This document shows positions 4,905 through 63,526 of a DNA stretch of 64,000 nt, one piece after another. Source of the stretch: Aurantiochytrium sp. KH105. Lineage: Eukaryota; Sar; Bigyra; Thraustochytrida; Thraustochytriidae. Position numbers and translations under genes: made by a program. Location of the stretch: contig BGKB01000229.1 in the NCBI GenBank assembly GCA_003116975.1, forward strand, positions 1 through 64,000, read 5' to 3'. The stretch's first letter is position 1. Each line of letters begins with the position of its first letter. Under the pieces are notes generated by a model. That model saw nothing but the letters and a program-made list of their open reading frames with translations. It was not told the origin of the DNA and made no database searches.

Positions 4905-7900
4905 ATGAATTTTCATGGCGATGGTGCACTTCCAAAAGCAGTTGAGGCGATCGAAAACGGCGCGACAGAAATTGAGTACGTAAACGACAAATTCTGAGAC
5001 CTCCCAAAACAAGAGCTGACCACAACTCACGTACGCGCGCACGCACGCGTGGGATGCGACGGAATGCATCCCTCGGCGCAATTTCGTTCATCTTGGCGTC
5101 TCATGTTATGACGAGCGCAGTCTTCGCAGCAAAAAGATCGGCGACGAGGGCGCCACAGCGCTGGCGAACGCACTCGCGAGCAACGAGTCGCTGCATACGT
5201 TATTGTAAGTCATTGCGACGAAGTGACAATCGGGCCAGAAGCTCTGGAAGCAACAAGAGCTGACCACAACTCACGTCGCATGCACGCATGGGATGCGACG
5301 GAATGCAACCCTTGTCGCGATTTTGTTTATCTTGCGTCTCATATTATGACGAGCACAGTCTTTACAACAGCAATTTCGGCGACAAGGGCGCCACGGCGCT
5401 GGCGAACGCACTCGCGAGCAATGAGTCGCTGCAGACGCTAAGGTAAGTTATTGCGACAACGTGAAACCAGAGCCGAGCCCGAGAAGTAACAAGCGCTGAC
5501 CGCAACTCACGTACGCACGCACGCACGGGGTGCGACGAAACACAACCCTTGGCACAATTTCGTTCATCTTGGCGGCTTATGTTATGACGAGAGCAGCCTT
5601 GAGAGCAACAACATTGGCGACGAGGGCGCCAGTGCGCTGGCGAACGCACTCGTAACAAACGAGGCGCTGCACACGCTTGCGTAAGTCATCACGACAAAGT
5701 GAAGGTGGGGCCCGAAGCCCGATAAGCAACAAGAGCTGACCACAACTCGCGCCCGTACGCACGCATGGGATGCAACCCTTGGCGCGATTTCGTTCATCTT
5801 GGCGTCTCTTGTATTGATGAGCGCAGACTTTGGGAAAACAATATCTGCGATAAGGGCGCCACGGCGCTGGCGAACGCACTTGTAAAGAACGAGACGCTGC
5901 ACACGCTAGCGTAAGTCATTGCAGCAAAGTGAAAGTGGGGCCAGAAGCCCGACAAGCAACAAGAGCTGACCACAACTCGCGTACGCACGCACACGTGAGG
6001 TGCGACGGAACACAACCCTTGGCGCAATTTTGTTCATCTTGGCGGCTTATGTTATGACGAGCGCAGCCTTGAGAGCAACAACATTGACGACGAGGGCGCC
6101 AGTGCGCTGGCGAACGCACTCGTTAAGAACGAGGCGCTGCACACGCTTGCGTAAGTCATTGCGACAAAGAGAATTGGGGCCAGAAGCCCGACAAGCAACA
6201 AGAGCTGACCACAACGCACGCCCATACGCACGCATGGGATGCAACCCTCGGCGGGATTTCGTTCAGCTTGGCGTCTCTTGTATCGATGAGCGCAGACTTT
6301 GGAAGAACAATATCGGCGACGATGGCGCCAGTGCGCTGGCGAACGCACTCGTTAAGAACGAGGCGCTGCACACGCTTGCGTAAGTCATTGCGACAACGTG
6401 AAAGTGGGGCCAGAAGCCCGACAAGCAACAAGAGCTGACCACAACTCACGTGCGCACGCGCGCATGGGGTGCGACGGAATACAACCCTTGGCGCAATTTC
6501 GTTCATCTTGGCGGCTTATGTTATGACGAGAGCAGTCTTGAGAACAACAACATCGGCGACGAGGGCGCCATTGCGCTGGCGAACGCACTCGCGAGCAATG
6601 AGTCTCTGCACACGCTCAAGTAAGTCATTGCGGCAAAGTGAAAGTGGGACCAGAAGCCCAAGAAGCAACAAGAGCTGACCGCAACTCACGGACGCACGCA
6701 CGCATGGGATGCGACGAAATGCAACCGTTGGCGCGATGTCGTTCATCTTGGCGTCTCATGTCACGACGAGCGCAGTCTTAAAGAGAACAAGATCGGCGCA
6801 GAGGGCGCCACGGCGCTGGCGAACGCACTCGCGAACAATGAGTCGCTGCATACGCTAATGTAAGTCATTACGACAAAGTGAAAGTGGGACCAGAAGCTCA
6901 AAAAGCAGCAAGAGCTGACTACAATTCACGTACGCACGCACGCATGGGATACGACGGAATGCAACCTTTGACGCGATTCTGTTCATCTTTGCGTCTCATG
7001 TTATGACAAGCGCAGCTTTGACGGCAACAATATCGGCAACAAGGGCGCCACGGCGCTGGAGAATGCACTCGCGAGGAACAAGACGCTGCAGACGCTAACG
7101 TACGTTTCGAAGATGTGCTGTTAAAGTCTGCGCCATCTTTTTTCTGACAGTCCCAAATCAGCATCGATTACAACAACCCTGCGCTCGAGGCCGCTCTCGA
7201 AAGCAATCGGGCCTTGTACGAACAGAGTCTGACGCCTCTTATGCAAGCGTGCAAGAAGGGCGATCTTGCAAGTGCAAAAGAGCTCGTGGCGGATGGGGCA
7301 CACATCGATGCACGTGACGACCTGGGCCTGACTCCAATGGTCCATGCTTGCGATGCCAGCGATAATGAAAAGGGTCTGATCATAGCCAAGCTTCTTTTCG
7401 AGAACAGCGCAGGCCTTTCGAGCGAGTCCTTCGGGCTGAAGAAGGCCCTTGCGCATGCTTCTTCCAAGGATTGCACGGAAATATACGCCTTTCTTTCTTT
7501 TTTACACTCGCTCCCGCTCGCAAATGCCGACACCAAGTGTGCGCGGAGGGTCGTTCTCAATCTTTTTCAAGCAGACGTGCGCACAGTCAGGACGGCTCGC
7601 GGCCTTTCTTTCTCTCGACTTTCGACCCTTGGAATTTCCGATCTTAATCAGCGAATTTCGTTCGTGACAATATTTGCTATCGAGCCAGAGATGAGCGCGC
7701 TCGAAGCGCTCGCTGCGCAAGCCTCGCTCGCTCGCAAGATGCGTAGCGAGACGCGAAGCGAGATGCGTAGCAAGGTGCGTAGCGAGATGCGTAGCGTGGG
7801 CACATTCGACCAATACTTATCTCTGCAAGACGAAATTGCAAAAGCGATCGGGCCCAAAAGCCCGATCGTTGTTCTTGCAAAGTTCGATGCGCAGCAGTTG

Positions 7901-10795
7901 ATTGCAAAGAAACAAGTCGAAAAATTTGAGACATTTCAAGGGCAAGTTCGAGACGCACCGGAGCGAGCGCCCGAACGGAATCAAGCTCGAGAGGAAGCCG
8001 TAAGATTAATCGAAGAAGCATTGGCAGACGGAAGTGAAGGCGAGCTTGAAAAGCTCAGAAAGGAGTTTGTTTCTGAGAACGTGCTTGACAAGTTTCGAGA
8101 GGTTTGCTCCGCTTTGACCGGCGTCGAACCCACGCTCGACCTTCCACCAGATGATGTGGTCACCCCTGAGCGTGTACATAAGATTACTCAGAAAACCCAT
8201 GATGCCCTCAAGGCATGGATGGAGCAAAATAAGACACGGCTTGCGTATGAGCGCACAGTGGCCGCGATGGACAGACTGAATGAGAAAGCAGCATGTGCGA
8301 CATTTCTCATGTACCCAAAGAAAAGACGCGAGCTGGCGCCCAACATTCGAGCTATCGAAGTCGCTCTTACAGAAGAAGTTAACGTCTTGTGTGCTGCAGA
8401 TACGGATGCGGATGCGGATGTGGCGCAAGACTTTCCTTCTGAGGCACTTCAACTCGAATTGGCAACTATGACCGCATTCTATGAGCGATTTTTAGCGTTT
8501 AGCATCATGCGCTTGATTTCCGCAGCAATGGAACTCGGGCAGTGGCTCTCGCGTCTGAAGCCCGGTCTCTCATCGCCGAGCACCGAAGACGTACAACGTC
8601 TTTTCGATGTTATTCAAAGCAAGACCAGAAAGCGCAAGCGTCTTGCCCTCGATCTTGAAGATGCCCGCGAGGATGCCAGGAGAGGCACAGAAGATGCTAA
8701 GGCGAGGGTTGTACGTCTTGAGGAAGAGCTAACTCAGATAGGGAATGTCTACAAGCTGGACAGTGAGCTTCGCAGAACGCGTGCGCGCGTACTGCGCCAT
8801 GCAGAGGAGCATTATCCCGAACTAATTCATGATCGAACGTGGCTTGAGAGCATTGACGTGACTGATCCTGCCACTCAGAAGTTATCTGAGCTGGGGCTTT
8901 TGCTCACAAACGCAAAACGCAAAGATTTCCAGGAACTCGCACACCTTGCGTCGAGTCCTGGCAAGTCTGTGCAAAAAGTGCGTCGTCCCGATGGCGGCGA
9001 TCTCGTTCTCAAGGCGTTCCATCTTGGCAACAAAGAGGAGAGCAGTCGCTTTTACCGCCAAGTCACAGCGCTTGCTCAACTCCAGTCGGCCTATATAGTG
9101 CGCATTCAGGGCGTGTTCATGCAGGATGCCCATCAGGGCTGCATTTTAATGCCCTTTTACGAAGGCGGCGATCTTGCCAATTGGATCGTCGATAATCCCC
9201 ATGCAGAATTTGCGACGCGTAGACGCATCGCTATCGGTCTTTTGAGCGGCCTGCACGACCTGCACTCGCGAGGCCTTGTGCATTGCGATATCAAGCCAGG
9301 AAACGTCTTTCTTGCAAAGGGTTTATCGCCGGTGCTTGGGGACTTTGACGGCGTCCAGATGCACGACGTGACCATGACCCAGCCTTTGCAGACGACCATC
9401 AGATACATGGCGCCCGAGCTGCGCCACGGAAACGTCGACAAGGTTGAGCCTGCCGTGGACATGTTCTCTGTGGGCGTGGTTCTCGCGGAGCTCTTCGAGG
9501 ATACAAAGATATCTGACGCGACTCAATCGCTTGTTTCGTCTCTGCAATCCGCAGACCCAAGTCAGAGGCCGACTGCACTCGCAGCCTTGCGACACGAAGC
9601 CTTTCAGGTCGAGCCTGTGAAGGTCGCCTCGTGTACAATTTGCCTTGACAATTGGCTCGTCAGAGAGGGCGTCTCTTGCGCTGACGGCCACTTCACGTGC
9701 AGAGAGTGCCTGAGCGAGTCGGTTCGTGCCGCTGCTCAGCCTCAGGCCTGTGTTAACTTGCAACGAGACGGAAGCATGCGATGTGTGACACCAAACTGCG
9801 ACCATGTCGTCTCTGGACGTTCCATTGCAGCCGCGGTTCCAGACGAGGATTTCGCAGCTCTGCTTAACATTGTGCGCGCGCACTTTGAGCAAGACGCTGC
9901 AGCCGAACAAGAGCGCCAGCTCCGTCATCGCGTCGACGCAGCGCTCCGCGAACATGGTCTCGACCCGACGACGCAGAATCACATTCGTACCATTCAAGAT
10001 GAGGTCCTCGCCATATCGTGCCCGCGCTGTTCGGCGGTCTTTGCTGACTTTGACGGCTGCTGTGCTCTCAAATGCGGCGCTTGCTCATGCTACTTTTGCG
10101 CGTGGTGCTTGCAGGATACAGGCGATGACATAGATGCTTGCCATCAGCACGTTGCGAGGTGCGCATCAAAGCCTGCTGGTGAACAGGACCCATTATTTAG
10201 CGAATTTGCTATCGTGCAGCAAGTATGGGCTCGGCTTCGAGCACAGAGTCTTCGTGAATACCTGGCAGATATTCAGGATGCAGGCGTTCGAGCTGACGTT
10301 CAGCGGAGACTGCGTCCTCTCATCACGTCGGCAATTGTTGACGAGACGCCCGAGTATCAGTACGACGCTTTCCTCACGCACGACTGGGGTGAGAACGGCG
10401 CGAATCACGAGTTCGTGAGATTGGTAAACGCGAAGCTTCAGAGCGCGGACAAGGTTACGTGGTTTGATGGGGAACGCCTACGCGGCGACATTGTCCAGCA
10501 AATCACGCACGGCATTGAGAACTCGCGCAAAGTGGTAGTTTTCATCACGGAGCGATATATGCACAAACTTGAGACTGGCGGCAACGACTACTGCAGGGAT
10601 GAGTTCATGACGGCTGTTCGCATTCACACGCCAGCGAGAATGATCGCCGTCGTCCTGGAAGCAGCGATGCTCGACCAGTCGTTGTGGCGAGGACCACTGC
10701 AGTTTAGCCTCGGCGGCCATCTTTACATCGACTTTACAACGCCAGCCAAGCATGAAGAGAACTTTTCTTTCCTGCTGGATTGCATCAATGCTTGA
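4905..10795 (+). CDS. LRR-ankyrin-kinase-RING/IBR-TIR multidomain protein, 11 exons
   Basis: Spliced model of 1,486 residues. Exons: 4905-4975, 5121-5204, 5359-5442, 5597-5680, 5827-5910, 6067-6150, 6296-6379, 6536-6619, 6776-6859, 7016-7099, 7162-10795. All ten introns are phase 2 with GTAAGT or GTACGT donors and CAG acceptors, and the frame holds throughout. The start ATG at 4905 follows an in-frame stop at 4860. Residues 1-293 are LRRs of the ribonuclease-inhibitor type; about 294-390 are ankyrin-like. About 390-870 are charged helices. About 880-1095 are a protein kinase: Lys893 in VLKAF, HCDIKPGN at 983, DFD in place of DFG at 1003, then MAPE. The HCD triad makes it non-RD. A RING-like Cys/His cluster starts at 1100 and an IBR/RING2-like cluster at 1229. 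A TIR domain runs from YDAFLTHDW (1343) with YCRDEF, whose Glu1423 sits where the TIR NADase glutamate is expected. Each domain is a known signalling module. An immune or stress receptor role, ubiquitin ligation and NAD cleavage are inference. Confidence 0.88.
4976..7161 (+). repeat. Tandem LRR exon-intron array
   Basis: Nine 84-nt exons, each encoding one 28-residue LRR, alternate with introns of 145, 154, 154, 146, 156, 145, 156, 156 and 156 nt; a last intron of 62 nt follows. Introns are nearly as alike as exons. They begin GTAAGTCATTGCGACAA, contain a GAGCTGACCACAACTCACG block and an ACGC-rich stretch, and end in variants of GACGAGCGCAG. Repeats starting LES (5597, 6067) alternate with repeats starting LW (5827, 6296) and carry matching 145/156-nt introns. 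This shows that a two-exon unit of about 470 bp was itself duplicated. Every exon is 84 nt in phase 2, so gain, loss or skipping of any one keeps the frame. Confidence 0.9.
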
Positions 10796-17313: not shown

Positions 17314-17736
17314 TCGTCTGTGGCCAATACCGACGACCTTCTCCTTTTTTTTTTTCCTTTTCCCGCGCTCTCTCTCTCTCACTCACTCTTCCATTCTCTT
17401 CCTTGATATTAGACTTTACTCAACCAGCACATGTTTCATCAGTTTTGGTTGAAAACAAAACAAAAAAGACATGATGAGGCATGTCTTTTTGCCGACGCCT
17501 CGCTTGAACTTGCTCTTGCTCTTGCACACGGCGCCAAGGACACAGCCGCGGCACAATTACTACAAATAAGCAGTAGTACACACCTTCTCAAGGTGTGTAC
17601 TACTGAAACGGTCACCGTTTCGATTTGCTTTCCGCTGACTATTGCTTGTTTTTTTACGTATACACGCACGCACGCACGCACGCAAGCAACCACATAGCAA
17701 AGCAAAGCAAAGCAACATCAAGGATTGTTAGAGAAG
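17314..17736. other. GRASP 3' region and upstream region of the HU/EF-hand gene
   Basis: Contains a T-rich/CT-rich tract just after the GRASP stop (17344-17395), two adjacent perfect inverted repeats (listed separately) and an ACGC tetranucleotide run at 17664-17686. A CAAAG-type repeat lies just before the next start codon. No coding sequence is seen. Confidence 0.6.
17571..17621. promoter_or_regulatory. Two adjoining perfect inverted repeats
   Basis: 17571-17586 (CAGTAGTACACACCTT) pairs perfectly with 17590-17605 across a three-base loop, a 16-bp stem. It runs directly into GAAACGGT-C-ACCGTTTC (17605-17621), an 8-bp palindrome with one central base, sharing the G at 17605. They lie about 260 bp after the GRASP stop and 116 bp before the next ATG. 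Possible roles are a cruciform, a paired transcription-factor site or an RNA hairpin; the sequence does not decide. Confidence 0.75.
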
Positions 17737-20700
17737 ATGGCGGACGCGTGTGGATGGACCACCGATGAGCTCGTGCAGGCTGCGCACGGATCGCTTCGCA
17801 AGACACGCGTTGAAGGGCGGGTAGTGACGCGAGCCGACGTGGAAAATGTGCTAGAGAACCTGGGCCCCTTCGTGCGCAAGACACTTGACCAAGGACGCGC
17901 GGTGCAGATTGCCAAGCTCGGGACCTTTGTCCCTGCCGCAAGAGACCCGATCGACGCGCGTGGTGCGACGCTGTGTCTCGCCTCCGACTTTCTCGCAGGA
18001 TGCGGCGTGCGCCAGCGCAAGGCCGCCAAGGGGCGCGTTCAAGGCGCAACGCGTCTCAATTTTCTGGCTCTTGCACAATTTGCTCATTTGCCCAAAGACC
18101 TCTGCCGAAAGGTCGTCGATACTCTCGTTTGGTCCATTTCCTTTGCTCTTACAAAAGACAAAGCATACATGCGCCTTGAGTTACCGGGCCTTGGACTCTT
18201 CTCCTGCAGCCGTGGTGTTTGCGATTTTACCTTTGGTGACTCGCACGAGCTACGTGGCGACGTTGAAGATTCCTCCTCTTCTCTCTTTGATGACGTTGGG
18301 CCCGCATCACATTCCCAGAATCAGAGCTACGCTCACAGCAACAACAATCATTTCGAAGAGGATTACGAGGCAGATCATGTTTCTGCTGCTGATCATGATC
18401 ATGATTATGACTATGATGACAGGGCTGAGCGACCTCTTGCTGATGGCGGCCCCGCGCATAGCTCGCGCGCAGCAGCACCTGTGCGACGCGTCGTCATTCC
18501 ACCATCAATGGACAGGCTTCGCGAAAAGGTCAAAGAACGCGGGGGTGCCAATGGAATCAACTCGCTCAGTCGGCTTTTACGCATCATGGATGATTCTGGG
18601 GACGGTTGTCTGAGCCGAACAGAGCTCAAGTACGGCCTGCAAGACTATGGTATCCGCATCAACAACGCAGAACTGGACGAGCTCTTTACTTTTCTCGACC
18701 GCGACCGCAGCGGTAAAATCAGCTTTGACGAATTTCTCGCGGGAATGCGAGGACCTCTCAGTAAGCGCCGTCTGGACCTCATTCACACTGCCTTTGGCCG
18801 TCTCGACCGCACCGGCGACGGCGTCGTTACGTTAGAGGACCTTGAAATGACGTACGACCCGAGCCACGACCCAGACGTGCAGGCGGGCCGCACCGAGCCA
18901 GCAGATGCGCTGCGCGTCTTTCTTGCACAGTTCGACACAATCGATCAGGACGGCATCGTCACCGAGCTCGAGTTCCAGGAATACTACAAGAATGTCAGTG
19001 CTTCCATTGATGATGACGACTACTTTGAGCTCATGATGCGCAACGCCTGGCACATTTCAGGAGGCAAAGGACAAACGGCCAACACCACGAATCGACGCGT
19101 TCTCGTCACTCACGCCGATGGCTCGCAAACGATTGAAGAAATCAAAGACGATCTTTGGGTGGACAAAAACGACCATGTCGAAATAAAACGCCGTCTCGCC
19201 CAGGCCAATGTTCATGCGCAGGGAGATCTTGGCATGTACCATGCTTCGGAAACCACTTCGGCCCCAGCCAGACGCGCCAAGCCCGCCTCGCTTTCCCAGC
19301 GACGCGCAGCATCCAAGCCCCCAAACTCAACACGCCGCCACGAGCCAACGCTCGCCTTTGCTCATGGCAACAAGTCTATTCCTGGAGATCAGGCGCTTCC
19401 TGGCGAGACAGCTCGGCCTGTTGACGAGTCAGCAAGTGTAGAAGACCCCATGAAGAAACTCGGCAAGCTGCTTCAAGCGCGGCGCATGGGCATTGACGAC
19501 TTTCTTCTTCGCATTGGCGCGAATCGCGTCATGGGCAGCGCATCCATTGATGTCGCGGCCTTTATTCGCGGCCTTTCACGCTTTGACCCAACAATGTCTG
19601 AACAGGATGCAGAGGCCATTGCGCGAGCCGCAGACAGCGACAAGTCCGGGTCCATCGATGTCGCCGAGCTCTGCGCATACCTGCAGGGCGCCAGCGCTCT
19701 CGAGCGCGTCAAGCAAGTCGTCACACAGAGAGGAGGCATGAACGGCATTGTGGGCCTCACGCGCATCTTGCGCAATATGGACGTTTCTGGCGACCTCGCT
19801 CTCGATCGTCGCGAGCTCGCCGATGGCTTTGCTGCGCTCAATGTCAAGCTTTCCTCCAAGGACGTCCAGGACCTCTTTGCCTATTTTGACAAGGATCGCA
19901 ACGGCAAAATCAGTGTCGACGAGTTTCTCATCGGACTTCGCGGAGATCTCAACTCCCGTCGAAAGGATCTCGTCGCATTGGCCTTTGCGCGTGTTGACCG
20001 CACCGGAGACGGTATTCTCACCGTCCAAGACCTCGAGCTTTCCTACGATCCTTCGCAGCACCCTGATTTCAAGGCAGGCACCAAGACCAAGACGCAGGTC
20101 TTGCGCGAGTTTCTTGATAGTTTCGATGGTCTGGAAAAGGACGGCGTCGTTACGCAGGATGATTTTTTCGACTACTACAAGGGTCTCAGTGCATCCATCG
20201 ATGACGACAACTACTTTGAGCTCATGATGCGCAACGCCTGGCATATTTCGGGCGGGACGGGCCAGTGCGCCAACACGGCCAATCGTCGCGTTCTCGTCAC
20301 GCAAAAGGACGGTCGCCAGACGGTAGAAGAGGTTCATGATGACCTTTACATGGACAAGCACCAGGCGCATGCCCAAGTACGAGCGCGGATGGGGAAGGAA
20401 AAGGTTGCCGAGGTCTCATCGTACTTTGCATCGGACGCCACCGAAAAGCCGCGCCGTGCTGGGCCTCCACCAACAGCAAGTGTGCGCGGCGCACAGAAAG
20501 TGGCAGCTGCGCGTGCGCAGCCTCGCGGCGGGTCGAGGCAAGGTCAGCAGCAAAAGCAACAGCCAAAACTCGCACATCGCCTCGGGCCCTCTCAGAGTCA
20601 ATCGCAGCTTGCCTGGGGTCGTAAGCCCTCTCACGCACGAGAAAAGGCGTCCACTCCCGACTTTTCGCAGACTTTCGTGGGCGATGAAGCCATGCCTGGC

Positions 20701-21831
20701 GTTGCGCCTCCCCGGTCTGTACAGTCTCGAGTGAGCCAGAGCCTCGCGACGTCAACGTTTTCCGCAACCTCGCGCAAAGAGCCTCGTGCCTTGATCGACC
20801 TTCGCGAACGAGTCATTGCGCGCGGCGGCACAAACGGAATCCACACGCTGGGACGCGTTCTCCGGATCATGGACGATTCTGGAGACAAGAGTCTTGACCG
20901 AGACGAGCTCAAGTATGGCCTCGAGGACTACGGGGTCAAGTGCTCGGCTGCGGAATGCGAAGACCTTTTCGCGTTCCTAGACAAGGACAAGAGCGGCAAG
21001 ATTAGCTTTGACGAATTTCTCGTGGGATTGCGAGGTCCTCTCCCGGCGCGCCGACGCGATCTCATCGGACAGGCCTTTGCCAAGCTTGATCGGACGGGCG
21101 ACGGCACCGTCACCGTCGAAGATTTGGAAATGACCTATGACCCTTCCTTTCACCCCGACGTTCGCAGCGGCAAGCTCTCCAAAGCGCAGGCCCTCCGTGA
21201 ATTCTTGACGCAGTTTGACACGATTGACCAGGATCAAATCGTCACGCAGCAAGAGTTCGAAGAGTACTACAAGAACGTGAGTGCTTCCATCGACGACGAC
21301 GACTATTTTGAGCTCATGATGCGTAATGCGTGGCACATTTCCGGCGGCAAGGGCCAGACCGCCAACACGTCAAATCGCCGCGTGCTCGTCACCCATGAGG
21401 ACGGCCGCCAGACTGTCGAAGAGGTTCCCGACGATCTCTGGGTCGACAAGAACGATCATGCCGAGATGAAGCGGCGTCTCGCCAAGGCCAACGTTCGCGC
21501 CAAGGGTGCTCTGGGCATGCACTACGCTTCGGAAGACACCGCGCCTCGGTCCAGGAGCAACCAGGGCACGCTCTCGCTGGCCTGGGACGAGCCCGACGAC
21601 GCGCGCGCCTCCCAGGCGCAGCTGCACGCCAAGCGCGCGCGCGAGCGCAAAATCCGCGCGGGCGCCGCTGCGCGCGTGCAGGCCGCCGCGCGCGCTCACC
21701 GCGCCAAGCGCCAGGTCGACCTCGCCAAGCGCGCCGCCAGGTCGCGCGACGCCCGGGCCCGCGACGCCCAGGCCGAGCGCGACGCCCAGGCGCGCCGCAT
21801 CCTCCGCCCCGCGGGGCCCAACTGGTACTGA
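17737..21831 (+). CDS. HU(CCDC81)-like and triple calcyphosin-like EF-hand protein
   Basis: 1,364 residues from ATG 17737, single exon. The N-terminus (about 5-165) resembles the paired HU-like domains of CCDC81-type eukaryotic proteins (VENVLENLGPFVRKTLDQGR, IAKLGTFVP, ELPGLGLFS). Three long repeats follow at about 258-500, 654-905 and 1019-1268. Each has the calcyphosin plan of four EF-hands: a degenerate or canonical DDSGD loop, DRDRSGKISFDEF, DRTGDGVVTLEDLE and DTIDQDGIVTELEFQEYY. Each ends in a module with WHISGG and NRRVLVTH. An extra EF-hand (DSDKSGSIDVAEL) precedes repeat 2. The C-terminus is Arg/Ala-rich and IQ-like. Ca2+ binding is well supported by the loops. CCDC81 and calcyphosin relatives are often centriolar or flagellar, so a flagellar scaffold is inferred. 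Confidence 0.85.
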   Translation: MADACGWTTDELVQAAHGSLRKTRVEGRVVTRADVENVLENLGPFVRKTLDQGRAVQIAKLGTFVPAARDPIDARGATLCLASDFLAGCGVRQRKAAKGRVQGATRLNFLALAQFAHLPKDLCRKVVDTLVWSISFALTKDKAYMRLELPGLGLFSCSRGVCDFTFGDSHELRGDVEDSSSSLFDDVGPASHSQNQSYAHSNNNHFEEDYEADHVSAADHDHDYDYDDRAERPLADGGPAHSSRAAAPVRRVVIPPSMDRLREKVKERGGANGINSLSRLLRIMDDSGDGCLSRTELKYGLQDYGIRINNAELDELFTFLDRDRSGKISFDEFLAGMRGPLSKRRLDLIHTAFGRLDRTGDGVVTLEDLEMTYDPSHDPDVQAGRTEPADALRVFLAQFDTIDQDGIVTELEFQEYYKNVSASIDDDDYFELMMRNAWHISGGKGQTANTTNRRVLVTHADGSQTIEEIKDDLWVDKNDHVEIKRRLAQANVHAQGDLGMYHASETTSAPARRAKPASLSQRRAASKPPNSTRRHEPTLAFAHGNKSIPGDQALPGETARPVDESASVEDPMKKLGKLLQARRMGIDDFLLRIGANRVMGSASIDVAAFIRGLSRFDPTMSEQDAEAIARAADSDKSGSIDVAELCAYLQGASALERVKQVVTQRGGMNGIVGLTRILRNMDVSGDLALDRRELADGFAALNVKLSSKDVQDLFAYFDKDRNGKISVDEFLIGLRGDLNSRRKDLVALAFARVDRTGDGILTVQDLELSYDPSQHPDFKAGTKTKTQVLREFLDSFDGLEKDGVVTQDDFFDYYKGLSASIDDDNYFELMMRNAWHISGGTGQCANTANRRVLVTQKDGRQTVEEVHDDLYMDKHQAHAQVRARMGKEKVAEVSSYFASDATEKPRRAGPPPTASVRGAQKVAAARAQPRGGSRQGQQQKQQPKLAHRLGPSQSQSQLAWGRKPSHAREKASTPDFSQTFVGDEAMPGVAPPRSVQSRVSQSLATSTFSATSRKEPRALIDLRERVIARGGTNGIHTLGRVLRIMDDSGDKSLDRDELKYGLEDYGVKCSAAECEDLFAFLDKDKSGKISFDEFLVGLRGPLPARRRDLIGQAFAKLDRTGDGTVTVEDLEMTYDPSFHPDVRSGKLSKAQALREFLTQFDTIDQDQIVTQQEFEEYYKNVSASIDDDDYFELMMRNAWHISGGKGQTANTSNRRVLVTHEDGRQTVEEVPDDLWVDKNDHAEMKRRLAKANVRAKGALGMHYASEDTAPRSRSNQGTLSLAWDEPDDARASQAQLHAKRARERKIRAGAAARVQAAARAHRAKRQVDLAKRAARSRDARARDAQAERDAQARRILRPAGPNWY

Positions 21832-27438: not shown

Positions 27439-28302
27439 TTAACCCAGCGTCACGTCCTCCGACACAGTGCCGGCTAGTTTACCCGTCGTTGCATTACCGG
27501 GATCGTCCTTGGCGTTGCTCACATCTCTTGGGTTGCAAGGATGCGGGTCAAAAGAGTACATTGCGATGAAAACCATGAGAGAGACGATGCAGACGAATTG
27601 CGCTGCCGCACGCATGTCGTTGACGGCGCTGCACTCGTCGTAGCTCCATAGTAGAGTCAAGGTGGGGTCCTCGGGAAGGGCGTTGGACTCGCAATAATCT
27701 ACATCCCCAACTTCATCGATGCACTCATCCATTGGAAGACGAGACCACGAACAAACGAGGCCGAGACCCACGGGAATGTAAATAATAAAGGCGATCATCA
27801 AGAGGCCGAGCGTAATGTATCGTGGAAGCATGAGCTTGGCAAAACGCTCATGTTGGGGGCGCAGAGTGCGATAAATGCTGATACTTACGCAAGCGTGCCC
27901 AACGACAAAGACAAAAAACACGTACGCCGAGTACGCGTGGAGGGCCTCGTGCTTGCTCGTGTCGAAAATGGAAAGAAGAGTGCTGGCGATTGCAGCTACA
28001 ACGCCGAGTACTGAAGCTGCAATGTTCCTGCACTTGACCTCACTGCCGGGGATCCAGTTCAGCACGTACACGAATTGCAGCACGTGAAAGCCGATGAATA
28101 GCACGCTGGCCGCCGTGATGAAACTCGCAAAGACGTAGTACGCGGGTTTGTCGCGGCCCGTGTCAGAAAAGTAGGGCAGAGTAAGGCCACCTACATAGGT
28201 ATTCCTGCTCGCAGCGATGCAGATGCACGTCACGTATGCCAGCACGATGAGGCTTGCCCCCGCTCCGGCGAGCGCGGCTCGCACCGTCCACAAGCTCACC
28301 AT
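27439..28302 (-). CDS. FRAG1/DRAM/Sfk1-family six-TM protein, copy A
   Basis: 287 residues from ATG 28302. The N-terminal TM helix (about 9-31) is followed by the family's luminal segment with LPYFSDTGRDKPAYYVF, then five more hydrophobic helices. Four Cys occur in the luminal loops around CSWSRLPMDECIDEV and DYCESN. Family members sit in the plasma membrane, Golgi or lysosome and act in autophagy (DRAM), GPI-anchor remodelling contexts (FRAG1) or phosphoinositide homeostasis (Sfk1/TMEM150). Which applies here cannot be read from sequence. It is a tandem paralogue of the gene at 29202-30038, same strand, with the same motif order and length. Confidence 0.85.
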   Translation of the reverse strand: MVSLWTVRAALAGAGASLIVLAYVTCICIAASRNTYVGGLTLPYFSDTGRDKPAYYVFASFITAASVLFIGFHVLQFVYVLNWIPGSEVKCRNIAASVLGVVAAIASTLLSIFDTSKHEALHAYSAYVFFVFVVGHACVSISIYRTLRPQHERFAKLMLPRYITLGLLMIAFIIYIPVGLGLVCSWSRLPMDECIDEVGDVDYCESNALPEDPTLTLLWSYDECSAVNDMRAAAQFVCIVSLMVFIAMYSFDPHPCNPRDVSNAKDDPGNATTGKLAGTVSEDVTLG

Positions 28303-28720
28303 GCTGCTGTGCTGCTGGTGGCTGCCGCGGTTGCTGTGGCCTCTTGCCTCCGGGGGTTGGAGTCCGTCAGTCAGTCAGTTGCTTGCACGCGCTGACCAGA
28401 TGCAACGTCTTGGAACACGTCGAGCCGCTCGACAAGGTTCACCAAGACAGTGGAATCGGGTCTGCTGCATGCTTGCTTTGCTTGCTTGGTTGATGGCCAA
28501 CTCACTCGAAAGGTCCCAAGAGGTATTGCATTGCACACCCGTCCCACGCTCGCTAGGGCCGTGGTAGACGTAACGGTAGAGTCATCGACCGATGTGTTGA
28601 GCTGGCTCGCGATGGGCTTGAGGAGGATGGGGGATCGGCCCATGCATCAACGCTCATCATGATATCTCCGCGTTGTCCCTGCGGGCTGCATACCGATTAC
28701 CGTGTCTGATGGGCAGGCAA

Positions 28721-29201: not shown

Positions 29202-30038
29202 CTACACCTTGCCATCTTCCGTACGTACCTGCGGCGCAGGATCGAGCGCGTATAGGAAGATGTAGGCCAAAAGACTAACGATGGAGATGAATTGGGTCAC
29301 AGCGCGCATGTCGTTCACCTCCGTGCAGTTATCGTACGCAAATAGCGTAGTGAGAGTTGCGTTGGACTCGTAAATCTTGTCCGTGCAATACTCCTCATCA
29401 CCAACAATGGTGATGCAGTCGTCGAGGGGAAGGCGTGTCCACTCGCACGCCAGCGCGAGGCCAACAGGAATGTAGCCGATAAAGCCAACGATCAAAGTGG
29501 CCATGACAATGTAGCGCGAAATAATAAGGCAGCCGCCGTGCGTCTCGGGAAAGCGCGCAGCCAAGAATCTACAAATGGCGATACTGAAGCTACAGTGCAG
29601 GATAATGAGAATGAAGAAAACGTAGGCCGAGTAGGAATGGAGGGCGCTGTAATTCCCCGTGTCAAAGATGGACAACAGGATGCTGCCGATGGGCGCGATG
29701 CAGCCAAAGATGGTGGCCGTGATGTTTCGGCACTTGACTTCGCCCCCAGGGACCCACGCCTGAACGTAGTAGTACTGCATGATCATGAAAGGGAACATGC
29801 ACACGCTGGCCACTGTGTTGAGCGTCGCAAAGATGTAGTACGCCGGTTTGTCGCGCCCCGTGTCGGAAAAGTACGGAAAGGACAAGCCGCCAATGTACGT
29901 GTCGCTCGCGATCGCGATCGCGATGCACGTCACGTACGAGATGAAGATAAGTCCCGACGCGATGGCCGCCATGGCCGTCCGCGCCTTCCATACGCCAGGA
30001 GACATGGTACTTGAAGGCGTCCCCTCGTCCGCGAGCAT
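29202..30038 (-). CDS. FRAG1/DRAM/Sfk1-family six-TM protein, copy B
   Basis: About 278 residues if started at ATG 30038; ATG 30005 (MSPGVW) is an alternative that aligns better with the start of copy A. The frame continues left only through GTG. It shares with copy A the order of six TM helices, LSFPYFSDTGRDKPAYYIF, GGEVKCRNI, LLSIFDTGNYSALHSYSAYV, CEWTRLPLDDCI, and the C-terminal NDMRA-TQFISIVSLL. The pair arose by tandem duplication, followed by clear amino-acid divergence. Localisation and activity are as uncertain as for copy A. Confidence 0.85.
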   Translation of the reverse strand: MLADEGTPSSTMSPGVWKARTAMAAIASGLIFISYVTCIAIAIASDTYIGGLSFPYFSDTGRDKPAYYIFATLNTVASVCMFPFMIMQYYYVQAWVPGGEVKCRNITATIFGCIAPIGSILLSIFDTGNYSALHSYSAYVFFILIILHCSFSIAICRFLAARFPETHGGCLIISRYIVMATLIVGFIGYIPVGLALACEWTRLPLDDCITIVGDEEYCTDKIYESNATLTTLFAYDNCTEVNDMRAVTQFISIVSLLAYIFLYALDPAPQVRTEDGKV

Positions 30039-30222
30039 CTCTGGAGGTCTGTCTTCACACACGCTCGTCGGACTCGTCTACTCAGCTATACCCCTAGCGG
30101 TGCGAGCTTAAAAATGAGGTTAGAGTTTTGCTGCACTTCCATCACCACTACGTGCCCTGCTTATTCGCAGCCAGCAGCAGGCTGTTAGTTTGCAGTGGCG
30201 TAGAATGTGATGGATCACGCCA

Positions 30223-52271: not shown

Positions 52272-53396
52272 TCACCTCCGACGCCGCTTTGAGTCTCGCC
52301 TATACGACTCACCACCGTAGCTTTTACGTTTTCCGTACGATTGATTGCGACTGCCAGCAAAGCCGGTGGGCTGACGATAATACGAACCACTTGGCGCACT
52401 ACGTCGCCGGCCTCTCGAGGAAGGCCGCGGGCACATGGCAGCAATATGACCCTGTTGTCCACAATTGTAGCACGTTGCCAAAGCAGCTCCATGAGACTCT
52501 TGCTCGCTCGCGCGAGGCTCTGGGCAACTCTCGTCGAAATGAGCTCCCGCACAATTAGAGCAACTGCCATTGGGCACTCGACTTCGCGACTGGCCCTCGA
52601 GCCCCTTCGAGTACGAGGTCTGGTGGCAATTGACGTGACCAAGCTTGAAGCATTGCATGCATACTACACTGCGCAGTTCCGAAAAGTTGACGCGACGGCG
52701 AGGTTTAAGAAGTTTTTCGTGAATGACGACCCCGACTGAGCTTGTACAATCCCTGGAAAGGTGACCGGTCCGCCCGCACTTGTAGCAAATGATTTGCGGG
52801 CAATCTTTCTGCTCGTGGCCCGTCTCGCCGCACAAGAGACAACTCCGTGCCGCGGGGGCCTGCAAACACTCGGCTTGCATATGGCCCTTTTCTCCGCAGC
52901 GGCGGCACGTCGGAGCCTCAAAGTAGCGGAAGGCGCCACCGCTTTGCCTTCGAGCTTGGCCGTTCACTGCCCCAAACTCCTCCTCCTCGTCGTCATCATC
53001 GTCAATTGCGTCGTTTTTTGCGTCGTTGTTGCTCTCATTCGATTCGACAATCTGGATGTCGTCGTCGTCGTCGTCGTTGTTGTTGTTGTTGTTGTTGTTC
53101 TCGTCCTCTTCGCGAGGGCGTTTTGCAGAGCTGGCGGCGGCGGCGGCGGCGGCGGCAGCAGCCTCGGCGTCCACGGCCTGGCGCTCCGCCCCATCTCCCT
53201 GCATGGCGGCCTTGTCCTCCTCGCCAAGCTCTTCCTGGTCCTCCTCGTCGGACCCTTCGCACACGTTCACGAGCTTGTACTTGTTGCGCGCCTCGCCGGC
53301 CCCCTCCTCCTCGTCCTCCTCCCCGCGCCGCGCGCCGCGCGCGGCCCCGCCCGCCTCGCTCTCCGACGACGAGTCCTCGCCGTGGAAGACCGCCAT
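52272..53396 (-). CDS. CCHC zinc-knuckle protein, AIR1/2-ZCCHC7-like
   Basis: 374 residues from ATG 53396. The N-terminal half is highly acidic with low-complexity runs (poly-Ala, poly-Asn, poly-Asp). The C-terminal half has six Cys/His knuckles. Four are canonical CX2CX4HX4C (CRRCGEKGHMQAEC, CLLCGETGHEQKDC, CYKCGRTGHLSRDC, CYNCGQQGHIAAMC). Two are altered (CMQCFKLGHVNC, CSNCAGAHFDESC). The basic tail is RS/RR-rich. Knuckle number and spacing resemble yeast Air1/2 and ZCCHC7, RNA-binding subunits of the TRAMP complex that feeds nuclear exosome substrates. The stop codon lies in GAGGTGAGC, a perfect donor sequence, so an extra 3' exon is possible. Divergent from the DUF1764 gene. Confidence 0.82.
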   Translation of the reverse strand: MAVFHGEDSSSESEAGGAARGARRGEEDEEEGAGEARNKYKLVNVCEGSDEEDQEELGEEDKAAMQGDGAERQAVDAEAAAAAAAAAASSAKRPREEDENNNNNNNNDDDDDDIQIVESNESNNDAKNDAIDDDDDEEEEFGAVNGQARRQSGGAFRYFEAPTCRRCGEKGHMQAECLQAPAARSCLLCGETGHEQKDCPQIICYKCGRTGHLSRDCTSSVGVVIHEKLLKPRRRVNFSELRSVVCMQCFKLGHVNCHQTSYSKGLEGQSRSRVPNGSCSNCAGAHFDESCPEPRASEQESHGAALATCYNCGQQGHIAAMCPRPSSRGRRRSAPSGSYYRQPTGFAGSRNQSYGKRKSYGGESYRRDSKRRRR

Positions 53397-53622
53397 GCCG
53401 CGCGGCCCGCCTCGTTCCCGCTCTGCGCTGCCTGCGCTGCAGACGCCGCCGCGGCGTGCCGCGGCGTGCCCGGCCCCGGTCGAAGGGAAAGCGCCATGGC
53501 CACGAACCAGTGACCCAGGCCTTCTCCTCCTCCTGCGCAGCCGCCGCAGACCCGAGCCGCAGACCCGAGTCGCCCGAGCGGAGCCCGAGCGCGGGTCCGC
53601 GGGGCCGCGAGCCGCGGGCGCG
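53397..53622. promoter_or_regulatory. Compact bidirectional promoter region
   Basis: Only 226 bp separate the divergent ATG codons at 53396 (minus) and 53623 (plus). The segment is very GC-rich with no clear TATA box. Both transcripts must start within it or overlap, so a shared promoter is likely. The zinc-knuckle frame stays open through it but loses family-like content upstream of its ATG. Confidence 0.5.
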
Positions 53623-54039
53623 ATGGGGCGCAAGCGCGCGCGGCGCGAGGCGGCGGCGGCGGCGGCGAATGAGGACGAGAAGGCGGCGCCGGAGAGGGGC
53701 TCCGGGGAGAAGGGCAAGGGGGCGAACAAGGGCGCGGCGCTGAGCGCGCTCGACGAGCTCTTCTCCGACGCCGGCGCCAAGGTGCGCGAGCGCAAGAAGA
53801 AGGAGCGGGAGCAGGAGGAGAAGGACGCCGCCGAGGAGCGCGCCGAACGCGAGGCGCGCAAGAGGAGACGCAAGGAGGACGAAAAGGAGGCCAAGGCCAA
53901 CAAGTTCTACGTCGACGACCTCACGCCCATTCGCCTCGATCCCGAATCAGGGTTCCCCGTGTACCGCGAAGAAGACTTGCGCATTGGACAAGGCGGAGAC
54001 ACTGCGGACTGTCCCTTTGATTGCAAGTGCTGCTACTGA
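53623..54039 (+). CDS. DUF1764-family small basic protein
   Basis: 138 residues, intronless. The first 85 residues are Lys/Arg/Glu/Ala-rich and probably helical or disordered. The C-terminus carries the hallmark block of DUF1764: a PIRLDPESGFPVYREEDL stretch, then IGQGGDTADCPFDCKCCY, where four closely spaced Cys end the protein. The function of the family is not established; the basic composition suggests nuclear or nucleolar location. The conserved Cys-rich terminus fixes the frame and stop. It shares a 226-bp upstream region with the zinc-knuckle gene. Confidence 0.88.
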   Translation: MGRKRARREAAAAAANEDEKAAPERGSGEKGKGANKGAALSALDELFSDAGAKVRERKKKEREQEEKDAAEERAEREARKRRRKEDEKEAKANKFYVDDLTPIRLDPESGFPVYREEDLRIGQGGDTADCPFDCKCCY

Positions 54040-60187: not shown

Positions 60188-60865
60188 TTGTCGTGTTTTA
60201 CGTGGTGTCCACGCTCGCCCGAGCCACGCTCGCTAGAGACGCCTTTGTCTAACGGTGGCGTGCTTCGTCTCCCGTCACGGCACGCCTTTGGCGTTGTCGG
60301 TTCGAGTGCGGAGAGCTCGTCCGTGGGGACCCTGTTCACCCGCTCGCCCAGCCTGCAGCGGCGGACTCATTGACTGACTGGGTGACTCTGCGCAAGCTTT
60401 CTTCAGTAGACAATGGGTACACACCTTGAGTCCCCGGATTCCATGCGCGTACCCCCTCTCCTTCTTCATGTTGGGCCACGAGTGACAAACTTGCAAGTTG
60501 TGTTGCAAGAAAAGTCCATCTTGAAGAAGGAGCACCAAGATCATCGCGCGCACGAGAAAGTGCCCGTGCTTCGTGCAATCGTTTGCGCAGGCCTCGTCGC
60601 TCGCAAGACCTCGACCCGCTGCGAAACACTTGAGGGACCAGGCTAACACGGGAAGGGAAGGGAGGTAGTAAAATAACGAACCGGAAACGAGGCAGAGAGC
60701 AAGGGGTGGGCGGGCCCTCCTCCATCAGCACCGCGAGCAAGAACGCAACTCGGACGAATACGTGCGTGCGTAGCACTACTAAATCCAGAGCTGGGCACGC
60801 GGAAGAAGTTGACAAAGGGCAGCTACTTGCCTGCGTGCGCGGGTGCGCATCGTAAAGAAAACAAG
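60188..60865. promoter_or_regulatory. Shared upstream region of SEN2 and ABHD18-like genes
   Basis: 678-bp divergent spacer. Frames across it are short and overlapping. The ABHD18-like frame extends left of its ATG only to a TTG at 60809. No gene and no distinctive repeat seen. Confidence 0.5.
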
Positions 60866-62035
60866 ATGTTTTGGGACCTTCTGAGCCGTGCCGCCGGCGC
60901 TGTGGACCTGACGGTGCCGTACTTTTTGACGAGCGGGCTCATGTGCGACGGATGGGGCGACGTGGACGATGACACGGACCAGCTGCTTGCTCATGAAATG
61001 CGAGAGCGGGGCACGGGCATGTTTCCAGATATCAAAGAGCTCACGTTTGCGGACGGGAGTAAGCCGCACGACGAGACACGCATCGGCTCGTTCACCTCGC
61101 CATGTGCCGCATGGCTGCCTCAGGAAAGTCAAACGGGCTACGTCATGATCGTGTCACCGCCGGCCACCAAAGGTCCTGTGCGAGGTGTCGTTGTGCTCGT
61201 CGCCCCAATCAGCGATGAGGGCTTCACCTTTCGTCATAGACTTGTGGCGGCACCTCTTGCTCGACAAGGCTTTGTCTCTTTGATTCTGCAAAGCCCCTTC
61301 TTTGGCCGTCGTCAGCTCAATGGCCAAAAGAACTTTTTTATGCGAACAGCCAACATGATGCTACTACAGATCCCGACAGTGAGTATCGAGGCTGCAAAGC
61401 TTGTCAAATACGCACGACTTGCTTTCCCAGGTGTGCCCCTTGGACTTGCCGGGATGAGTGTCGGTGGCTGCTCGGCAGCCTCTGCATTCCCCAGCGCCGT
61501 CAAGGAGATTCAGAGCATTGACGGAAGTGGAGAGTCGACCCCTCTCGTATTGTGCGGCTTTGTGCCGCCATCGCAGTGCAGCATTCTCTTTTCCAGTCGC
61601 TTTTCACGTCTTTTTGACTATGGCGCTCTCACTCTTGATAGGCCTGGCTATCGCACCGTTGAGGACGTCAAGGCGCGGCTTGCGGAGCGCTTTCAGACCC
61701 ATGACGCGACAACATGCTTTGACCTCCTTCGCGGACAGGACTTCTGCCCCTCGCCGCGCCTGACCTTTTCCCTTTTATGCGCGAAACATGACTATGTTGT
61801 CGTTCGCGAAGATACCATGCGGCTCTACGAAGCAGGTCGCGCTGTCATTGCAGACATCCGTCTTCGTTTCTTGTCAGGCGGACACCTGTCGAATATTGCA
61901 CAAACCTCTCAGATCATGCCGCACGCAATCGTGGAATCCTTTCAAGCACCAGACCCTTCCTTTACGAATGCTGCTGCAGTTGCAGAAAAGGTGCAGGACG
62001 ACAGCCAGCAGCTTTCACCCCGGAGCAGACTTTGA
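60866..62035 (+). CDS. ABHD18: ABHD18-like alpha/beta hydrolase, copy A
   Basis: 389 residues from ATG 60866 (MFWDLLSRAAGAV). The family signature is clear: an N-terminal block with DGWGD and MFPDIKELTF, the core strand RGVVVLVAPISDEG, and APLARQGFVSLILQSPFFGRRQ. The nucleophile elbow is GMSVGG, with Ser as catalytic residue, and the final histidine is in FLSGGHLSNIAQT. The acid is probably the Asp in LLCAKHDYVVV. Animal ABHD18 is a mitochondria-associated lipid hydrolase; the substrate here is inferred only from the family. The gene is tail-to-tail with a paralogue at 62159-63526, 123 bp away. Confidence 0.88.
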   Translation: MFWDLLSRAAGAVDLTVPYFLTSGLMCDGWGDVDDDTDQLLAHEMRERGTGMFPDIKELTFADGSKPHDETRIGSFTSPCAAWLPQESQTGYVMIVSPPATKGPVRGVVVLVAPISDEGFTFRHRLVAAPLARQGFVSLILQSPFFGRRQLNGQKNFFMRTANMMLLQIPTVSIEAAKLVKYARLAFPGVPLGLAGMSVGGCSAASAFPSAVKEIQSIDGSGESTPLVLCGFVPPSQCSILFSSRFSRLFDYGALTLDRPGYRTVEDVKARLAERFQTHDATTCFDLLRGQDFCPSPRLTFSLLCAKHDYVVVREDTMRLYEAGRAVIADIRLRFLSGGHLSNIAQTSQIMPHAIVESFQAPDPSFTNAAAVAEKVQDDSQQLSPRSRL

Positions 62036-62158: not shown

Positions 62159-63526
62159 CTATTGAACGGAGGCGCGACGCTGCTTCAAGCGACAGCTTAG
62201 CGCGATTGGCGACGTGAAGAGCTTGTACAAAAAAGCCAATCGCCTTCGTCTGCCAGCACCTGATGTCTTCTTGCTCGCGCCCTTGAGCCTAGCCAATTCG
62301 CCGAGGCTGCTTGCTGGCGGAGAGCTGCTAATCATGCGAGCCTCGACGCCATCGAGCCTTGAAAAGGTCTCCAGAATGGCATTGGGAAGGAAACGATACG
62401 TTTGCGCAATGAGCGAAACATGTCCGCCTGGAAGCGTCTCTTGTCGCGCACTCGAGACGAACGGTCGGGCGATGTCAAACGTGTCTCCAGCGTGCTCATG
62501 CGTGACAATGCGGTCGTCCTGGCCTCGGATGCAGGTAAACGCGGTTTTCGTCGGAACGCCATCAAGTGGGAGAGTAAAGAATTTGGCCGTGTCGCGCTCA
62601 TCGAGGACCTCTATGAGGCGCGCCTTGGCCTCTTTTAGCGTGCGAAAACCGTCTTCGTCCTTGATGAGAGACTTGAAATTGAACATTGGAGCTATTGCGC
62701 TGTCAACCATGCATCGTCCATGTGAAGGCGGAAGAAAAGAGCAGATGGCCAATGCAGTTGGCTCCCGGCCTTGGGCTTCATCGAGAGCTTGAAGCTCTCT
62801 GAGAACGGAAGGTAGCACTCCAATGATCACGCCGCCGCCAAAGCTTGTACCCGAGAGTCCAAGCGGGACGTCAGGAAATCTCATTCTGGCAAACTTGAGA
62901 AGCTTGGTCACTTCAATCATCATCGTGGGTAACTGTGAGAAAAAGCGTGCAACAGTACGGATAAAAGGACCTGTCTGTCCTAAAGGCCTCCGCATGCCGT
63001 AAAATGGACTCTCCAAGATATACGAAACGTAGCCTTTCGCGGCCAGTGGACTGGCAACACAGTGTTGCCGCATGAGAAAGCCCTCTTCAGCGGTTGCTGC
63101 GACTTGGATGAGTACGCCTCGGATCGGGACGTCTTCGGGTGGCGAAATCACGAGAACGTATCCGGTCTTGCTCTCCTCAGGTAACCATTGGGCAGCAGGC
63201 GAAGCAAATGAGGCGAGGCGGTTGGTGTCCCCGTATTGCGTTCCATCGTCAAAGCTCAGGTCCGCAATGTCGGGAAAGCATTCGGTTCCTTCACTTTCGA
63301 TGATGCGAAGCAAATTTTAGTCATTTTCTAGGTATTCTGCTTCATCCCCCCATCCGTCTTGGAAAAATTGATTGAAAGCGGTCTTCGCCCAAATGCTGTC
63401 GAGTGAACCAAGCATGCTGCTCGCGAAAGAAGCCGCCGACCTACGTATCGATGCTGTTCGCTCAGGGGAGGAAATGCTCTCTCCCGGGAAAGGGGATGGC
63501 GTTGGCGGGGGCACAACCGTCGTCAT
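62159..63526 (-). pseudogene. ABHD18-like hydrolase, copy B, interrupted by one in-frame stop
   Basis: Paralogue of the gene at 60866. The coding frame runs from ATG 63526 (or ATG 63415, which matches the start of copy A) to 62159. One in-frame TAA at 63317-63319 lies between FFQDGWGDEAEYLEND and LLRIIESEGTECFPDI. Both sides align with copy A without a frame change. No GT-AG pair nearby would remove the stop. Downstream, everything is intact for 384 codons: SPFYGMRRP, the elbow GTSFGG and the final LPGGHVSLIAQT. Reading: a recent pseudogene, stop read-through, or a sequencing error. Translation from a downstream Met would lose the first third of the core. Confidence 0.7.

Follow-up and report, generated by a model that had tools for sequence, protein, structure and literature searches.

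A predicted LRR, ankyrin, kinase, RING-like and TIR protein of Aurantiochytrium sp. KH105 with a variable concave LRR face

Introduction

NLRs are cytosolic proteins in which an LRR sensor is coupled to a signalling domain, and in plant TNLs the output is a TIR domain. In choanoflagellates, two types of proteins combine a kinase with a TIR domain: the Kinase TLRs, which have the order LRR-transmembrane-kinase-TIR, and the Kinase TIRs, which consist of kinase and TIR without a membrane segment, as described in eLife 2018;7:e34226 (PMC6040629). The architecture of the Kinase TLRs is proposed in the same account to bypass the recruitment of a kinase. The LRR-ROCO genes of brown algae are another case, in which LRR exons are shuffled (Teng et al. 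2024, PMC11378527; Zambounis et al. 2012 cited there). According to the former report, each LRR of the brown-algal ROCO proteins is encoded by its own phase-2 exon, and four sites under selection are situated on the concave face of the repeats.

A gene predicted at positions 4905-10795 of a 64-kb window, that is, of the whole stretch of Aurantiochytrium sp. KH105 DNA that was analysed, has features of all these systems. Coordinates below refer to the forward strand, which carries the gene, unless indicated otherwise.

Comparison with described systems

As in the choanoflagellate Kinase TLRs described in PMC6040629, an LRR region, a kinase and a TIR domain follow each other in the same order on one predicted protein. 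Unlike in the Kinase TLRs, no transmembrane segment is seen between the LRRs and the kinase, and an ankyrin region and two zinc modules are extra. The protein resembles the Kinase TIRs in having a kinase and a TIR domain but no membrane segment, and differs from them in possessing LRRs. No transmembrane segment was seen in a simple hydropathy scan of the whole protein, in which the top 19-residue value, 1.35, falls in a zinc module. The initial annotation stated that no described family has this order of domains. This is too strong with respect to the LRR-kinase-TIR order, which is known from choanoflagellates (PMC6040629), but ankyrin and RING-like additions to it were not found described. 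The order is not wholly new; the predicted ankyrin and RING-like parts and the apparent lack of a membrane segment are differences from the Kinase TLRs. Among the titles and abstract openings listed in literature searches, with 15 of 225 papers covered in one case, none mentioned a protein combining LRR, ankyrin, kinase, RING and TIR parts, which is weak evidence, as the subscription literature is mostly outside the reach of such searches. No literature pairing a thraustochytrid with a TIR domain was found.

Similarly to the brown-algal LRR-ROCO genes as reported in PMC11378527, the gene has tandem phase-2 exons encoding one LRR each, with an excess of change at concave positions. The brown-algal exons are 72 bp long and accompany a ROC-COR core, whereas those of the present gene are 84 bp long and accompany kinase, RING-like and TIR parts; neither ROC nor COR had a Pfam match in this protein. 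Alternative splicing of LRR exons has been shown in brown algae (PMC11378527), whereas the exons described here are predicted from the genomic sequence.

The likeness to NLRs consists of a predicted cytosolic location and the combination of an LRR sensor with a signalling domain. The LRRs are N-terminal here, unlike in NLRs. NB-ARC and NACHT domains were absent from the Pfam results, with thresholds of E <= 1 for exon 11 and E <= 10 for five pieces. The protein was not classified as an NLR because it is without a nucleotide-binding domain. Bacterial toxin names (E >= 0.16) and effector names that covered the ankyrin or the kinase part only were dropped as well.

Gene structure

A splice model rebuilt from the sequence consists of 11 exons (4,461 nt, 1,486 codons) in a single frame, terminated by a stop codon at 10793-10795. 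The original reading of the locus, one gene with one frame running through eleven exons, turned out to be mostly right: as a prediction, the gene model stands up, and both the single frame and the Pfam matches place the LRR array and the TIR end on one predicted polypeptide. Exon 1 (4905-4975) contains the ATG and an N-terminal cap, comprises 23 codons and 2 nt, and exits in phase 2 at a GTACGT donor. It is followed by nine LRR exons (5121-5204, 5359-5442, 5597-5680, 5827-5910, 6067-6150, 6296-6379, 6536-6619, 6776-6859 and 7016-7099), each of which is exactly 84 bases long and symmetric in phase 2, and encodes a single 28-residue LRR. Exon 11 (7162-10795) encodes everything else, namely the ankyrin stretch, a central region, the kinase, the RING-like and RING2-like modules, the TIR domain and the stop codon; by itself it constitutes one open frame of 1,215 codons from stop to stop.

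All ten introns have GT..AG ends, with eight GTAAGT and two GTACGT donors, and phase 2 is found at every exon junction. Read-through at any of the eight GTAAGT donors would lead immediately to an in-frame TAA. None of the 55 possible forward exon junctions creates a stop codon, and the exon lengths preserve the frame. The last intron (62 nt, GTACGT donor) is shorter than the other nine, which are homologous to each other, span positions 4976 to 7015, measure 145-156 nt, share 76-92% pairwise identity and are located one 5' of each LRR exon.

A 22-nt block, CAAGAGCTGACCRCAACTCRCG, recurs in all nine of these homologous introns with 0-2 mismatches (nine copies versus 0.00 in shuffled sequences). 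The copies lie at 5010, 5254, 5490, 5730, 5960, 6199, 6429, 6669 and 6909. The block coincides in part with the 22-nt window in which the introns are most conserved, and an equally conserved window occurred in 236 of 5,000 shuffles. A CTGAC resembling a branch point is contained in the block, 87-101 nt from the acceptor.

Duplication and variation of the LRR exons

The LRR_6 profile matches nine stretches of the protein (E 1.5e-38, passing the Pfam cut-off), and the nine repeat units are in register beyond chance. The duplicated unit comprises both exon and intron, with a start-to-start distance of 229-240 bp. Taken as a pair, units 3-4 are about 90% alike to units 5-6 and therefore look like a duplicated pair. 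The sequence of these units shows that the array has expanded through tandem duplications of an element of about 240 bp, composed of exon plus intron. The mean pairwise identity of the nine introns preceding the LRR exons is 83.1%, compared to 79.4% for the nine LRR exons, and the exons are more alike than the introns in only 8 of 36 unit pairs.

The differences between the exons are concentrated in the LxLxxN motif, the exposed x positions of which face the concave side of the LRR horseshoe. Unit positions 1, 3 and 4, which are the exposed ones, have undergone 5-6 residue steps each, versus only 1-2 at positions 2, 5, 6 and 7 of the motif. Outside the motif, positions 21 (4-5 residue steps) and 24 (3-5) are also variable. 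The orientation of the x positions towards the concave side is likewise supported in PMC11378527, and three of the four selected brown-algal sites reported there appear to be the same LxLxxN positions.

Change was counted as parsimony steps rather than with PAML, and the intron baseline was formed by 114 gap-free columns from which splice ends were excluded. At codon positions 1 and 2 of unit positions 1, 3 and 4, the rate is 3.0-3.2 steps per site on three trees, compared to 0.74-0.78 in the introns and 0.44-0.54 in the other codons of the LRR exons. The exposed codons of the motif thus change at about four times the intron rate. Draws of intron sites, which treat sites as independent and use trees built on nine short units, reached the rate observed at the exposed positions in 0 of 20,000 cases on each of the three trees; permutations within the exon did so in 2, 0 and 1 per 20,000. 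Out of the 3,276 possible combinations of three unit positions, 10, 1 and 3 on the three trees equalled or exceeded positions 1, 3 and 4, counting this combination itself.

Pooled across all pairs of units, dN/dS amounts to 0.66 and is not above 1. Constraint in the rest of the LRR exon does not clearly exceed that in the introns, since 1,470, 105 and 776 of 20,000 draws were as low. Eight fourfold sites at invariant LRR residues (5121-7099) show 0.125 steps per site, which is below the introns and suggests that gene conversion may preserve the LRR core. Either an exonic splicing signal or gene conversion might be the cause of these quiet sites. What conversion leaves unexplained is the excess of change at the presumed concave codons relative to the introns. 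The pattern itself is plain from the counts, and we infer selection as the cause of the diversification of the concave, putatively ligand-binding face. In our view, the best indication that the protein is a receptor is the combination of one predicted LRR per symmetric exon, change that peaks on the concave face, and introns that are more alike than the exons, on which the original reading had made no comment. It is this pattern in the LRR exons that raises the case above a plain list of domains.

Ankyrin region and kinase

The ankyrin stretch extends over 7232-7495. The repeats named in the earlier reading are confirmed in one instance (7232-7321), where Ank (PF00023) scored 24.6 bits compared to a cut-off of 21.1 (E 2.9e-05); the others are weak, and Ank_2 narrowly missed its cut-off (27.2 versus 27.3). 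The central region, between the ankyrin stretch and the kinase, contains an in-frame short tandem repeat at 7739-7795, which gives MRSETRSEMRSKVRSEMRS.

The Pfam stretch of the protein kinase domain (Pkinase, E 1.6e-30, above the cut-off) occupies 8966-9502. The expected Lys, HxD, Asn and DFx residues are all kept, being K893 (9011), D985 in the motif HCD (9287), N990 and D1003 in the motif DFD (9341). Since HCD replaces HRD, the domain is a non-RD kinase, as proposed. A Gln is found in place of the alpha-C Glu in both kinase alignments shown, which makes the catalytic output of the kinase less sure than was originally implied, and no GxGxxG glycine loop could be discerned by eye. In view of these two features, the domain may be a weak kinase or a pseudokinase. 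The best PADLOC model for the kinase (8969-9499) is MAD6 (E 3.6e-36), which belongs to an anti-phage system of bacteria. Membership in MAD6, as named by PADLOC and NCBIfam matches, was set aside, because general kinase similarity may explain the scores.

Zinc modules

A 'RING/IBR' module had been proposed to follow the kinase. The RING half of this proposal finds a counterpart in a complete RING1-type Cys/His series, C1100-x2-C-x11-C-x3-H-x2-C-x2-C-x24-C-x4-C1155 (9632-9799), with an extra C1139 inside the x24 gap. The best Pfam RING scores on an 88-residue piece were those of Sina_RING (E 0.00088) and zf-RING_2 (E 0.0027), and both are under the cut-off. Matches of this first module to the Protein Data Bank are weak, the best being RNF4 (E 0.00024), with the RBR ligase RNF216 at E 0.29.

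The second module, C1229-C1276 (10019-10162), resembles RING2/Rcat and contains a candidate catalytic cysteine, C1242 (10058-10060). Its best phmmer match in the Protein Data Bank is RNF4 (E 0.094), and the next is RBCK1 (E 0.16), which we take to be HOIL-1. In this alignment C1242 stands opposite the GC-motif cysteine of RBCK1/HOIL-1, a position at which the otherwise similar entry 9egv has an Ala. The active-site cysteine of HOIL-1 is C460 (PMC9834252), to which C1242 may correspond.

The IBR half of the proposal did not stand. IBR had no Pfam match on the 201-residue zinc region; IBR_1 remained sub-threshold both on a 74-residue piece (E 0.094) and on the shortest, hand-picked piece of 41 residues, which counts towards the second module (E 0.0011). 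Not a single Cys occurs in the stretch of 73 residues that separates the zinc modules (1156-1228), so that the middle IBR is absent and the protein is not a canonical RBR. A full RBR assignment was therefore rejected. The RING1-like series and the RING2-like module with C1242 may correspond to parts of RBR E3 ligases such as HOIL-1 and RNF216, as these are presented in PMC9834252. Unlike these ligases, however, the predicted protein has no IBR zinc module between the two, and its profile scores are sub-threshold.

TIR domain

The C-terminal TIR domain (10355-10792) is recognized by TIR_2 above the Pfam cut-off (E 4e-13), and its predicted fold is TIR-like, in agreement with the original assignment. 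The glutamate expected at the NADase position was also found where it had been placed: E1423 (10601-10603) lies in the motif YCRDEF and aligns with the Glu of WCWDEL in the CRISPR-associated protein Cat1 (phmmer E 0.0053). The alignment of E1423 was taken from phmmer, as MAFFT misplaces the three columns just before it (alignments A2 and A3). The Glu at this WCxxEL position is catalytic in TIR NADases. The conserved Glu of SARM1 is likewise described as catalytic (PMC6040629).

The model of the TIR domain folded from its single sequence had a pLDDT of 40.5 and was discarded. Adding 12 divergent TIRs of viral contigs, with identities of 18-27% to this TIR, resulted in a TIR-like model with a pLDDT of 74.7 and a pTM of 0.72. 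These 12 came from at least 40 viral-contig loci fetched by pattern; 23 of the 40 listed reach E 0.001 against this TIR, and the fold input comprised 11 of those 23 together with locus L007 (E 0.12), which was judged to be a TIR by eye. The other 12 of the 23, which are identical or almost identical copies as far as their first 90 residues are concerned, were left out, as were the 16 remaining loci, which are not TIR-like. With the model as a Foldseek query against the Protein Data Bank, 28 matches had E <= 0.001, of which 27 are TIR domains or proteins that contain one (TLR1, TLR2, RUN1, AbTir, SARM1 and others), the sole exception being the reductase SsuE. Normalized to the length of the query, the TM-scores are moderate, with 0.54-0.69 for the TIRs and 0.53 for SsuE, and the identities are low. 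In its predicted fold and the position of its glutamate, the domain resembles the TIR NADases SARM1, bacterial AbTir and CRISPR-associated Cat1, and NAD+ cleavage by it is putative. The TIR_2-like matches given by PADLOC include PDC-S66 (E 2.8e-08).

Relatives and the genomic neighbourhood

None of the viral-contig scans that used a single protein as query, be it the TIR domain, the LRR part or the kinase-RING-TIR part, confirmed a relative, nor did scans of genome contigs with the RING-TIR part or scans with alignments. DNA-pattern scans of the viral contigs for the intron block and the LRR core gave 0 matches. The collections searched consist of viruses and prokaryotes, so that these misses say little about other protists. 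There is no second copy within the 64-kb window, where all tblastn matches of the protein (E <= 1) lie inside the gene itself.

Judged by its genes, the window belongs to a nuclear protist genome. The ten introns of the LRR gene stand out beside the RFC1, MIP-T3, ABC transporter and EF-hand protein genes. Several conserved genes of the window are each contained in one long open frame, as in the case of RFC1 (907 codons from stop to stop) and MIP-T3 (735 codons), the latter presumably being IFT54. The ABC transporter is also one long open frame, of 1,568 codons, with two ABC and two membrane parts. A single 1,377-codon frame at 17698-21828 encodes CCDC81-type HU domains and several EF-hand pairs. 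Domains named among the 23 other frames scanned are those of RFC1, RRP40, MIP-T3, GRASP and similar proteins. On the reverse strand, a tandem pair of genes of the Frag1/DRAM/Sfk1 family is located at 27442-28374 and 29205-30077, and one frame at 52275-53906 contains three CCHC zinc-knuckle stretches. Two convergent frames, at 60677-62032 (forward) and 62162-63316 (reverse), each match roughly the initial half of the profile for the hydrolase ABHD18.

Proposed function and alternative explanations

The gene is best explained as encoding a single cytosolic receptor-signalling protein, an LRR sensor with built-in outputs and a diversified concave face, that would probably serve in the intracellular recognition of non-self or danger; we put this reading at about an even chance. 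Its immune role is putative, as are the activities of its enzyme domains and any alternative splicing. The N-terminal horseshoe of nine LRRs would be the sensor. Binding of a ligand would cause the protein to cluster, upon which the kinase might phosphorylate the protein itself or a partner. The pair of RING-like and RING2-like modules may transfer ubiquitin, perhaps via a thioester on C1242 as its weak alignment suggests. The C-terminal TIR domain could self-associate and then either cleave NAD+ using E1423 or scaffold a complex. By analogy, the protein would condense into a single chain what an NLR or TLR pathway does, although it has no nucleotide-binding domain. The earlier proposal that one polypeptide couples recognition to several outputs thus stands in so far as LRRs, kinase and TIR are on one predicted chain, and is weakened by the sub-threshold RING/IBR part and by a kinase output that is less sure. 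A more elaborate version is rather unlikely: a combinatorial receptor, in which the nine cassette exons (any subset of which stays in frame, giving up to 512 forms) would be alternatively spliced, the signals for their choice residing in the conserved introns, and every form would be linked within the same chain to a kinase, an IBR-less cysteine-dependent ligase and a TIR NADase.

The protein could instead be a large scaffold or housekeeping regulator, in which the LRRs would have a small, fixed set of host partners, each repeat being specialised for its contact. The kinase and the zinc modules would then be inactive or have a regulatory function, and docking would be the only task of the TIR domain. 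LRR arrays of this sort are also present in non-immune proteins, and the Gln in place of the alpha-C Glu and RING modules below the profile cut-off are what such a protein might be expected to have. Furthermore, no immune-type domain was found in the 23 other frames of the window that were scanned, out of 133 with at least 150 codons. The exposed concave codons, however, change at four times the intron rate, which fits a change of specificity better than fixed contacts, and the TIR domain retains E1423; a scaffold is considered unlikely, but well worth bearing in mind. Another origin of the variable sites would be unequal crossing-over and gene conversion, which homogenised the introns and the LRR core and spared part of the exons, no selection being involved. 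The introns and the fourfold core sites are indeed very alike, and the similarity of about 90% between units 3-4 and 5-6 implies that duplication or conversion was recent. Yet homogenisation does not proceed codon by codon, and the contrast within the seven codons of LxLxxN, where the steps are few at positions 2, 5, 6 and 7 and many at 1, 3 and 4, speaks against this explanation, which we regard as improbable.

The model might also have joined two genes, a decaying or separate array of LRR exons and a gene for the ankyrin, kinase, RING and TIR parts whose start lies inside exon 11. The join between the LRRs and exon 11 is a genomic prediction, the last intron with its GTACGT donor is the short one, and exon 11 alone is a long open frame. 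Nevertheless, all nine LRR exons are open and equal in length and phase, and the ninth runs in frame into exon 11. A decaying array, moreover, would not focus its change on the concave codons, and a fusion of two genes by the model appears improbable.

Significance

Intracellular recognition of non-self by unicellular eukaryotes is poorly known, and the gene is a concrete candidate for it, with sensing and three possible outputs on one predicted chain. The internal pattern of change singles out the likely binding face. If the receptor reading is true, the diversification of LRRs by exon cassettes would extend beyond the genes of brown algae, and fusions of LRRs, kinase and TIR would occur with ubiquitin-ligase-like additions and without a membrane segment.
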